A stretch of DNA of 22,690 nt from a virus, in the IMG/VR virus record IMGVR_UViG_3300044955_000078, positions 1-22,690 of that record; one strand, written 5' to 3'. How positions within the stretch are numbered: position 1 is the stretch's first letter; each line of letters begins with the position of its first letter. Below are positions 6,613-19,355 of this stretch, one piece after another. The notes under the pieces were generated by a model. It was not told the origin of the DNA and made no database searches. It saw only the letters and a list, made by a program, of their open reading frames with translations. A program made the position numbers and the translations under genes.

Positions 6613-7033
6613 CGATCAGGTATTGAAGTTCAACGCTGAGGCTAAGGAGAACTCATCTCTGATCCTGCGCACTGCCGTTGACAGCCTGCATAAAGAGATT
6701 GCGCGGCCAAAGTCTGTTGGCGGTAACTTGCCGTTTGATACGGGTAATCTTGGCAGGTCTATCGAGGTCAGCACGGTTGCTTTTCCAGATGTCGATCAGA
6801 CGGAAATTGAGTACGGCGCGCAAGATGTATCATTCACTATCAACGGTGTGGAATTTGGCGATCCGGTTTACATCGGTGTCCGCGCTGTTTATGGGCCTCG
6901 TATGAACTATGGTTTCGTCGGTCAGGACAGTCTAGGCCGCAACTACAATCAATCTGGTAACTATTTTGTTGAGCGAGGGGGGCAAATGTGGCCATCACTA
7001 GTCAAGGAAGCAGAGGCGCAATATGGCGAGTAA
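6599..7033 (+). CDS. Neck/tail completion protein (HK97 gp10-like)
   Basis: A 144-residue protein with a helical N-terminus (FSDQVLKFNAEAKENSSLI), then LPFDTGNLGRSIEV, the hallmark of the HK97 gp10-like family in which a Thr-Gly-x-Leu-x-x-Ser/Arg element precedes the beta domain. A VYGPRMNYGF segment and a C-terminal NYFVERGGQMWPSLVKEA helix complete it, also typical (family ends in W-x-x-x-V-x-E-A). It joins head and tail. The ATG at 6599 is preferred; a GTG directly before it (6596) could also serve. It overlaps the MuF-like gene by 14 bases and the tail terminator gene by 11. Confidence 0.8.
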   Translation: MGSFSDQVLKFNAEAKENSSLILRTAVDSLHKEIARPKSVGGNLPFDTGNLGRSIEVSTVAFPDVDQTEIEYGAQDVSFTINGVEFGDPVYIGVRAVYGPRMNYGFVGQDSLGRNYNQSGNYFVERGGQMWPSLVKEAEAQYGE

Positions 7034-7439
7034 CGATGCAGAAATTTGGGCTGCTGTTAGGGATTATTTCAACGACTATCCTAGCTTGCCTAGTGATGTG
7101 GTTTATCCGGGCGACACTTTCAATGACGTTGACCCTCTAGCACCGTACATCATCATTGATGACTTGCGATATGATCCAGCGCGTATTTATTGGCAAGGAC
7201 CAAACTGGCGCACTGGCTCTTTGATGATTATGGTTATGGTCCCGTTACAGTGGACATATACGCAGAGAATTGAATACGCAGGCAAGATCACTGACTATTT
7301 CGCAGAGGATAGCGTGATGCAGTTTGGTGATGTGACGTTGCGTGTAGCACAACAGCCCACCTTGTCACAGGCGGGCTATCGTGATGGTTCGCATTATCGG
7401 TTGCCGGTGCGTGTGGATTGGGAGGGCTTTGTTGGTTAA
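7023..7439 (+). CDS. Tail terminator protein (DUF4128-like)
   Basis: A 138-residue protein of the size and pattern of phage tail terminator proteins, which cap the finished tail tube and attach it to the head. There is an N-terminal helix (DAEIWAAVRDYFNDY), a PYIIIDDLRYDPARI strand pair, a GSLMIMVMVPL strand, a helix (YTQRIEYAGKITDYF), and a final strand pair ending LPVRVDWEGF. It sits between the neck protein and the tail tube genes, the standard place. Its TAA stop (7437-7439) is offset by one base from the stop of the facing minus-strand peptide gene (7436-7438). Confidence 0.75.
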   Translation: MASNDAEIWAAVRDYFNDYPSLPSDVVYPGDTFNDVDPLAPYIIIDDLRYDPARIYWQGPNWRTGSLMIMVMVPLQWTYTQRIEYAGKITDYFAEDSVMQFGDVTLRVAQQPTLSQAGYRDGSHYRLPVRVDWEGFVG

Positions 7440-7546
7440 TTGATACACCACAAAGCTATATCAACGCCAAAACCGATTGCCAGTCCTCCGATAAGGCCGA
7501 CAAGCACGCCAAGCCAAAGGGCGATTGCTAGGTTTAGGTCAGTCAT
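7436..7546 (-). CDS. 36-residue membrane peptide, antisense
   Basis: A short frame starting MTDLNLAIALWLGVLVGL and ending ALWCIN. Almost all of it is one hydrophobic, glycine-rich transmembrane helix (about residues 6-34), with a single acidic residue near each end. Its ATG overlaps the TGA of the gene before it on the minus strand (ATGA, 7546-7543), a standard coupled junction, which strongly supports translation. Its stop is interlocked with the stop of the plus-strand tail terminator gene. Small phage membrane peptides of this kind can block superinfection or alter the host membrane, but nothing in the sequence settles the role. Confidence 0.6.
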   Translation of the reverse strand: MTDLNLAIALWLGVLVGLIGGLAIGFGVDIALWCIN

Positions 7547-7719
7547 GCTTCAAGCCTTTCCTTGATCTTATTGCAATGCGTATGTGTCCCTTCACACACG
7601 AAATTCTTAAACTCGTGATCTTTGCCATACCACGTATCGCTGCGAGTAACGATTGACCACAATTCGCATGGCGCGTGTCGTCCTTTTCGTATCTCATATC
7701 TTACATGGTGATTCTTCAC
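7543..7719 (-). CDS. 58-residue protein of unknown function, antisense
   Basis: A small basic protein (about 58 residues) with three His-rich clusters and two Cys: it begins VKNHHVRYEIRKGRHAPCEL, contains WYGKDHEFKNFVCEGTHTHC, and ends in a charged helix. Several Cys/His pairs hint at metal binding. The GTG at 7719 is chosen because AAGGAG lies 8 bases before it; the ATG at 7740, seven codons upstream, has no ribosome site. A sigma70-like promoter lies directly upstream. It is coupled to the membrane peptide downstream, making a two-gene antisense unit inserted between tail terminator and tail tube genes. The family is not recognised. Confidence 0.6.
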   Translation of the reverse strand: MKNHHVRYEIRKGRHAPCELWSIVTRSDTWYGKDHEFKNFVCEGTHTHCNKIKERLEA

Positions 7720-7747
7720 GCCAATAACTCCTTCATCCATACGTGAT

Positions 7748-7777
7748 TTGCAACGTCTACGTCACTCAGGGTATGAT
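7748..7777 (+). promoter_or_regulatory. Candidate plus-strand promoter for the tail tube gene
   Basis: TTGCAA (7748-7753), an 18-base spacer and TATGAT (7772-7777) lie 30 bases before the tail tube start codon. This promoter overlaps the minus-strand promoter almost completely, so the two would compete for polymerase. Confidence 0.45.
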
Positions 7778-7782
7778 GTCAA
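7754..7782 (-). promoter_or_regulatory. Promoter of the antisense two-gene unit
   Basis: On the minus strand, TTGACA (7782-7777) and TAGACG (7759-7754) are 17 bases apart, leading to a short leader, AAGGAG and the GTG start at 7719. The layout matches the promoter of the SleB-like gene. Confidence 0.55.
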
Positions 7783-7807
7783 CAACTTTTAACAACATGG
7801 GTGCAAC

Positions 7808-8284
7808 ATGGCAAACACACCGAATTTCAAGGGCGGCAAGGTTTCGATTTGCGCCACTGCTCAAGACGATGATCTGAACCAAGCTGGTTTTGAAGCTCTG
7901 ACATTTGTCGAGGCTGGAAAGGTGATCGAGCACGCTAATATCGCAATCTCCACCGGGGACAGCGCGCAAAACTACTGGGGCCATGGTGTTACGCAGCACC
8001 AAAAAGGCCACGTTGATGTGGGCGGCGCTAGTGTGATGTTTGGCTATGATCCTGATGATACTGGGCATGATGCGTTTGACACTGCTGCCGCAAGCCGTAG
8101 CAGCTTTGCGGTCAAGATTGAGCTTGATGATAACCCGAACGGCGTAACGAATACTATCGTCTACACTCGCGGTTATATCACTTACCCGGAATATCAGTTT
8201 GGCGAAGGTGAGGCGTTCTTCAACAAAACGTTCAACACCATGTACAATCAGCTTCCGATTGTCGTAAAGCCGACTGACGTTTAA
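7808..8284 (+). CDS. Major tail tube protein
   Basis: A 158-residue protein in the usual place for the tail tube subunit, between the tail terminator and the tail assembly chaperones. It is beta-rich with a start (NTPNFKGGKVSICAT) and a series of strands seen in major tail proteins, and ends with an FFNKTFNTMYNQLP segment. No strong Shine-Dalgarno sequence precedes the ATG, which is odd for a protein needed in hundreds of copies; the leader is A-rich instead. Assignment is from size, position and strand pattern. Confidence 0.7.
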   Translation: MANTPNFKGGKVSICATAQDDDLNQAGFEALTFVEAGKVIEHANIAISTGDSAQNYWGHGVTQHQKGHVDVGGASVMFGYDPDDTGHDAFDTAAASRSSFAVKIELDDNPNGVTNTIVYTRGYITYPEYQFGEGEAFFNKTFNTMYNQLPIVVKPTDV

Positions 8285-8308
8285 TCCAAGCATAAGGGGG
8301 AATTTCAC

Positions 8309-8755
8309 ATGGCGATTGCAGATCGTTTCTATCGCAATGGGCGCAATCAGGAATTTGAGTTTGAGCTTTTGGACTTGGACGGGGAGCCTTCCGGTCTGAA
8401 AGTTTGGCTCATGGATATGGAGTGCGACGCGGCGGTCGAGGTTGACAATCAGTACAACGCGAAAACCACTGACGTAAACCTGCGCTATATCAAGGTTGAT
8501 GGCGACAACGTGACTAGCGATGTGCCCGAAGGTAAGCGCGGTGAGCTTTGGCAGGATCGCGCGCATGACAAGTATGTTGCGTGCATTAGCCGTTGGGACT
8601 TTAATGGTGAGGGGTTGTTCTCTGATGATGAGCCTGACCCTGAGTGCAATTATGAGAACAAGTCTAAGTTTTTGCGCATTCCAAATGTGGGCCAGCAGGT
8701 AGTCAAGAGGATTGACGAGATCTCGGGTTTTACCAAGCCCTCCAAGAAGGGCTAA
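8309..8755 (+). CDS. Tail assembly chaperone (gpG-like)
   Basis: A 148-residue acidic protein directly before the frameshifted second chaperone frame and the tape measure gene, the standard place for lambda gpG-type chaperones. Contains QEFEFELLDLDGEPSGLKVW, a beta region, and a C-terminal helix (RIPNVGQQVVKRIDEISGF). A strong ribosome site (AAGGGGG) precedes the ATG. Seven codons before the stop lies the slippery heptamer G GGT TTT in the correct frame (8725-8731), so a fraction of ribosomes would move to the -1 frame and make the long form. The protein is expected to coat the tape measure and recruit tube subunits. Confidence 0.8.
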   Translation: MAIADRFYRNGRNQEFEFELLDLDGEPSGLKVWLMDMECDAAVEVDNQYNAKTTDVNLRYIKVDGDNVTSDVPEGKRGELWQDRAHDKYVACISRWDFNGEGLFSDDEPDPECNYENKSKFLRIPNVGQQVVKRIDEISGFTKPSKKG

Positions 8756-18821: not shown

Positions 18822-19355
18822 TCATGTGCGATTTTTACCATGGTCGCATGCAAATCCGGCCTCACTCCGGGCCTTCGCGACAGCAACAGCCGCTGCCGTC
18901 GGGCAGTTATAATAACCTAACTCATGGTATCGGTTATTTTTTCTGTACCCGGCCCTCCACTTTCCGCTTCTTTTATCAAAGCTGACACCAGTAAAGCCGC
19001 TAGTATTTGTACTGTACATACCTCTATTTCTGCAATTTGTCGAGTGATCAACAGACCTTAGATTTTCAATCCTATTGTCGTCTCGGATTCCATTAATATG
19101 GTCAATAAAACCATCGGGCCATTCACCATAGTGCAGGCACCACGCTACACGATGCGCTTTAAAGTGACTTCCTTTAATTTGACCTACCAAATATCCAGCA
19201 CTGTTTTTGCGATTAAACGCGGCACGACCAGCATATTGCCCGTTGAACCAAGAATTTCCATCGCGAGGTAGCCAAGTAAGCTCCCCGCTGTTTTTATTGT
19301 AAGAAAGAATATCTGACACCATTTCTGGTGGGAAACTCCCCTCTTTCTTTGTCAT
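18822..19355 (-). CDS. HNH homing endonuclease with AP2 DNA-binding domain
   Basis: A 177-residue protein. Residues about 54-110 form an HNH_3 nuclease core: KAHRVAW with His68, then FIDHINGIRDDNRIENLRSV giving Asp85-His86, Asn88, Asn94 and Asn98. Residues about 119-166 (SGFTGVSFDKRSGKWRAGYR onwards) are an AP2-type DNA-binding domain. Free-standing homing endonucleases of this build cut phage DNA lacking the gene and spread by repair. It has its own promoter and AAAAGGAGAT ribosome site and is separated from the clamp gene upstream by a terminator, as expected for a mobile insert. The likely target is a related phage at or near the clamp gene, which is an inference. Confidence 0.9.
   Translation of the reverse strand: MTKKEGSFPPEMVSDILSYNKNSGELTWLPRDGNSWFNGQYAGRAAFNRKNSAGYLVGQIKGSHFKAHRVAWCLHYGEWPDGFIDHINGIRDDNRIENLRSVDHSTNCRNRGMYSTNTSGFTGVSFDKRSGKWRAGYRKNNRYHELGYYNCPTAAAVAVAKARSEAGFACDHGKNRT

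Follow-up and report, generated by a model that had tools for sequence, protein, structure and literature searches.

Two short open reading frames run against the direction of the late genes in the tail region of a virus record of 22,690 bases (the whole stretch analysed, here called the window), and they raise the question of whether they are genes and, if so, what genes of this kind do inside a late operon. The structural genes of the window follow a siphovirus-like order (head morphogenesis, neck, tail terminator, tail tube, tape measure), and both frames lie on the minus strand within the 368-base gap between the tail terminator gene (7023..7439, plus strand; PF13554, phrog_179) and the tail tube, or major tail protein, gene (7808..8284, plus strand; phrog_158). 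Elsewhere in the window, an HNH/AP2 homing-endonuclease-type gene (18822-19355, minus strand) is flanked by kinase-like and polymerase clamp genes.

Two coupled genes in an exchangeable slot

The ORF of the first frame spans 7543-7740 and would give a protein of 65 aa from the ATG at 7740 or of 58 aa from the GTG at 7719, the latter positioned 8 nt behind a ribosome-binding site, AAGGAG (7733-7728, minus strand). The 58-aa product (7543..7719, minus strand) is a Cys/His-containing protein with the core NFVCEGTxxYC. Its stop codon overlaps, as ATGA, the start of the second frame, which encodes a 36-aa membrane peptide (7436..7546, minus strand; hydrophobicity 2.5 over 19 residues). The two coupled frames described in a sequence-only reading of this DNA are thus both present, and the coordinates bear out the one-base offset that it noted between the stop of the peptide (7436-7438) and that of the facing tail terminator gene (7437-7439), which have a TTAA palindrome in common. 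The same overlap of stops recurs in several relatives with unrelated genes; we regard it as a by-product of an insertion that is flush with the tail terminator gene.

Comparison with related phages indicates selection on both frames at the protein level. Relative to the window, the 36-aa frame of the 49.8-kb relative G001 (= L003) differs at 12 codons, 9 of them by synonymous changes only (P about 4e-4 for the synonymous excess, with a 25% null), and that of another relative, L004, shows three synonymous changes and no others. Judged from these substitutions, the peptide is under purifying selection. In G001 (L003:9665-9739, minus strand) a TGA at codon 25 would shorten it to 24 aa, with the transmembrane stretch retained; substitutions cluster around this TGA. 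For the 58-aa frame, five other phage records contain homologues that are 33-60% identical at the protein level. On this comparative evidence both antisense frames are real genes. Neither product has any match in PADLOC or Pfam, and in NCBIfam and PHROGs no match reaches significance (best E for the peptide 1.2-1.7); these four collections connect neither of them by sequence with a known protein of exclusion or defence.

The flanks of L004 are 86-94% identical to the window, and in place of the soluble gene this relative carries an unrelated 99-aa gene (with a weak match to PHROG 2827), while the promoter region, the AAGGAG and the 36-aa gene are retained. The borders of the swap coincide with the ribosome-binding site, common to the swapped genes, on the right-hand side and with the start codon (ATG) of the peptide at the opposite end. 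As the soluble gene is exchanged and the peptide stays, the two are not an obligate pair, and the functional two-gene unit of the sequence-only reading is not supported. A toxin-antitoxin system, which calls for an obligate cognate pair, does not agree with this swap either, and elsewhere a homologue of the 58-aa gene has different neighbour genes. The block 7543-7850 (308 bp) has 2 differences between the window and G001, against about 30 expected, apparently a sign of recent exchange. A second block near the slot (7251-7400), with zero differences from G001 over 150 bases amid DNA that is about 10% divergent, likewise appears to have been exchanged recently.

The sequence-only reading had proposed comparing related phages for presence or absence at this site, and at the 113 junctions where both border genes are present we found empty, filled and swapped sites: 93 have gaps of no more than 110 bp, and about ten have promoter-bearing antisense inserts of unrelated genes. 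Their contents differ. L021 and L106 have proteins that carry a short helical tail and look SH3-like by eye, and L025 and L124 have proteins of the KYY type. In L038 a soluble 55-aa and a 52-aa membrane protein form a pair with the same ATGA and stop overlaps; L116 has four small genes, one of which encodes a membrane protein, and in L119 and L125 there is a 25-aa remnant similar to the end of the gene in L004. That the slot can also be filled without the promoter element is seen in L036/L105, where it holds an antisense lipoprotein gene. Two further antisense genes lie next to tail tube genes in other settings. One is an 84-aa gene with a TTGACA promoter (L023:1991-2245, minus strand), for which the upstream gene is tape-measure-like and not a tail terminator, i.e. 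either the gene order differs or the contig is rearranged; the other is an M48 peptidase-like lipoprotein gene with a PDZ match, just upstream of a distant tail tube gene (L006:8663-9712, minus strand).

The layout of the slot and the exchange of its genes can thus be read directly from the sequences compared. As in morons, extra genes stand at a place that in relatives is empty or differently filled, and the variation in presence and content agrees with the earlier view of an added accessory unit with what appears to be its own promoter. One might instead suppose that the product that matters is the RNA, i.e. that a leftward transcript damps the tail terminator and upstream late genes and that the peptides are secondary. 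The convergent arrangement, with no terminator ahead of the tail terminator gene and the slot flush with its stop, would suit such a regulator; however, the insert varies freely in sequence and length, and the synonymous bias of changes in the peptide, the protein-level conservation of the 58-aa product and swaps that are exact to the ribosome-binding site all point to selection on protein, which makes a regulatory antisense RNA very improbable.

A promoter-like element beside the tail tube gene

On the minus strand the window has a perfect -35 hexamer, TTGACA (7777..7782), followed 17 nt on by a weak candidate -10, TAGACG (7754..7759), which reads TATnnn in most relatives; a promoter scan with T required as the sixth base passed it over. 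A minus-strand TTGACA no more than 110 bp from the tail tube start is present at 10 of 10 non-redundant antisense-insert sites (a group from which the L036/L105 lipoprotein insert, having no TTGACA element, was left out) versus 1 of 76 empty sites (Fisher P 3e-12). The insert is therefore adjoined by a conserved TTGACA-N17-TAnnnn, a putative promoter of its own as expected of a moron. A transcription terminator of its own is missing, with 0 terminator-like sites and no intrinsic terminator in 7000-8400; the broader definition of morons in present use does not require one (PMC6316719).

In the 1.29 Mb of loci retrieved, the fuller pattern TTGACA-N16-19-TA-N4-9-GCAAA has 12 occurrences, all of them on the minus strand and no more than 50 bp from a tail tube gene, against 0-2 matches in simulated sequence, a specificity that is partly built in, since the motif, the GCAAA part included, was drawn from the same sequences. 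Less dependent on the choice of motif are the TTGACA count given above and the comparison of the following bases, nnnTA being found after TTGACA in 11 of 12 cases here versus 6% of 574 others (P 2e-12). Whole records of slot phages contain exactly one copy of the element each, and in four bacterial genomes (about 15 Mb) it has 8 matches and the reversed pattern 6, i.e. background. The perfect -35 and the conservation of the element among relatives are consistent with the claim of a separate promoter, but its description as simply host-type is not supported, as the element appears specific to the slot.

On a tree of tail tube proteins, which are often only 34-44% identical among slot phages, the sites with the element are clustered but do not form one clade, and at least three gains or losses are forced; an origin of the promoter sites in a single clade is thus not borne out. 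Three empty slots (L039, L041, L053) still have GCAAAT, a TTGTCA-like -35 and a GATAAT-like rightward -10 upstream of the tube gene, perhaps a relic left after loss of an insert.

Read on the plus strand, the element has the form TTGCnn-N17/18-TAnnnT and ends 30-49 bp before the start codon of the tube gene. In the window this corresponds to a candidate -35, TTGCAA (7748..7753, plus strand), whose complement gives the conserved GCAAA, and a candidate -10, TATGAT (7772..7777, plus strand), TAnnnT being present here in 11 of 12 elements. The element can hence be read as a face-to-face promoter pair whose members overlap, the minus half for the insert and the plus half, which is the less certain, for the tail tube gene. 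Because the rightward -35s are weak (TTGCnn), the symmetric element could also be an operator for a regulator. A related proposal is that it serves as an operator or recombination site instead of a promoter pair, the inserts being passengers of recombination. The near symmetry of TTGACAnnnTA ... TAnnnnGCAAA, the repeated exchange of inserts and the 308-bp block, nearly unchanged within 10% divergent DNA, are all compatible with this proposal, but the -35, the 17-nt spacing, the TA of the -10 and the downstream ribosome-binding site fit a promoter in every case, and the right-hand border of the swap lies at the ribosome-binding site and not within the element. We therefore consider an operator or recombination site improbable and prefer the promoter reading.

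The 58-aa protein family and the life style of slot phages

The first searches with the 58-aa protein retrieved no relative other than a near-copy in G001. A first homologue was then found with a degenerate DNA pattern, and the alignment of these two sequences retrieved the others, so that the family has homologues in L159, L160, L161, L162 and L163, with an invariant core NFVCxGTxxxC. With the six sequences the AlphaFold pLDDT of the 58-aa protein rises from 54.6 (single sequence) to 89.7, and the predicted fold is beta-beta-beta-alpha, i.e. three strands and one helix. A Foldseek search with this model gave no match in the PDB (best E 1.3), and its matches in BFVD (best E 0.03; TM-scores of 0.65-0.76 in some cases) are all small phage proteins without a name, so no function follows from its structural neighbours. 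The sequence search of the PDB was empty, annotated phages contained no relative of the protein or of three of its homologues, and 385 alphaproteobacterial genomes yielded zero relatives with a profile that does detect the phages containing the family. A match on a Halomonas plasmid falls inside a transporter-like ORF and was rejected as due to chance. On the strength of these alignments, the 58-aa protein is a member of a real, previously undescribed phage family.

The homologues occupy varied positions, described here with gene names assigned by eye. In G007, whose own slot has an SH3-like gene, the homologue is a neighbour of the genes for ThyX and the polymerase clamp. The L161 copy comes after helicase genes, and a small lipoprotein-like gene is coupled to it by an ATGA overlap; the L159 copy adjoins a macro-domain-like gene. 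In L162 the homologue is again antisense to structural genes, between those for the major capsid and the connector, is preceded by TTGACG-N17-TATGTG and is followed by a 117-aa gene. That homologues lie among replication and nucleotide genes speaks for expression of the family early in infection.

Neither G001 (49.8 kb) nor G007 (54.5 kb), the two longest slot records, contains an integrase, a serine resolvase or a convincing repressor; PF00589, PF00239 and a convincing HTH_3 are absent from the records of G000, G001 and G007, which may be fragments. An integrase is present in G016, G017, phiLM21 and RHph_TM3_3_3, and the corresponding sites are empty or of another type. G001 encodes a primase-polymerase, ribonucleotide reductase, ThyX, dUTPase and a polymerase clamp. 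The gene content of these possibly incomplete records favours a virulent slot phage and not a function in lysogeny. G001 also carries an ectoine synthase gene in its nucleotide-metabolism region (L148:7859-8227, minus strand; PF06339, E 5e-37), possibly an auxiliary metabolic gene for osmotic stress, as well as adjacent ParB-N-like and DUF3440/PAPS-reductase genes (L148:7345-9423, minus strand), which we take to resemble the IbrA/IbrB type of pair.

The sequence-only reading had offered superinfection exclusion or host takeover as the function. In the former case the membrane peptide, acting alone or together with the soluble protein, would block DNA entry or the assembly of a competitor, in the manner of a prophage-type defence such as JBD26 Tab or HK97 gp15, the latter being a membrane protein encoded by a superinfection exclusion moron of a temperate phage and likened here by description. 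The peptide is indeed constant across the L004 swap, the antisense orientation and the apparent promoter are exactly as in Tab, and other slots also carry membrane protein or lipoprotein genes (L038, L116, L036). However, slot genes elsewhere mostly encode small soluble proteins, PADLOC gives no match for either protein of the window, and the two longest slot phages have none of the three lysogeny functions listed above, which makes exclusion by a prophage unlikely. Takeover of the host would fit better, and superinfection exclusion by the constant peptide is the less likely reading.

Proposed role and known parallels

We consider the two genes most probably to be a moron in antisense orientation that occupies a slot of the late tail operon open to different inserts and encodes small early proteins directed at the host. 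From the conserved promoter-like element by the tail tube gene, which points leftwards into exchangeable small genes, host RNA polymerase would start at a sigma-70-like promoter before the late genes come on. The small proteins made early would then act on targets in the host, the soluble one in the cytoplasm and the peptide in the inner membrane; both the timing of expression and this action on the host are what we infer from the sequences. Later, rightward transcription through the slot would oppose the antisense message and shut it down, and past the insert the opposing promoter would help the tail tube gene to be transcribed again. More tentatively, and with the odds somewhat against it, the slot could be a plug-in site built on a dedicated face-to-face promoter pair, with an early leftward start, a rightward relaunch and an automatic switch-off by late transcription. 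If true, virulent phages run early genes from inside a late operon. The slot would in any case be a test case for how antisense accessory genes are kept within late operons without harming tail production, and its position-specific element can be used to find small accessory genes missed by gene callers, one junction per phage.

Another insert in this type of operon occurs in Paracoccus phage Pkon1, which belongs to a related phage type and has an antisense HipB-like/RelE-like pair (L013:7021-7626, minus strand). As in the window, there are two accessory genes on the minus strand, here between head and tail genes, but the junction used is the one after head morphogenesis, and the toxin-antitoxin genes are unrelated to those of the window.

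Antisense morons as a kind are already known. The pid gene of P22 is one, located in the late region, and relatives of P22 have no insert or other inserts at its site; it differs from the present case in being a single gene of a temperate phage, with a Rho-independent terminator and a known effect on the host, the derepression of dgo, and the parts of the report consulted here describe no promoter shared across distant phages (PMC3573128). Tab of Pseudomonas phage JBD26 is similar in its arrangement, as a small (83-aa) minus-strand protein encoded in a late operon with its own promoter, but its gene sits between the terminase genes and is paired with a plus-strand anti-Tab, and Tab is a soluble blocker of tail assembly that is expressed from the prophage (PMC10884400). 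Compared with these systems, and as far as the literature was searched, what looks new is a fixed slot in the tail region, with a promoter-like element common to distant phages and exchange of the genes behind it, together with the first description of the 58-aa phage protein family and its compact predicted fold.
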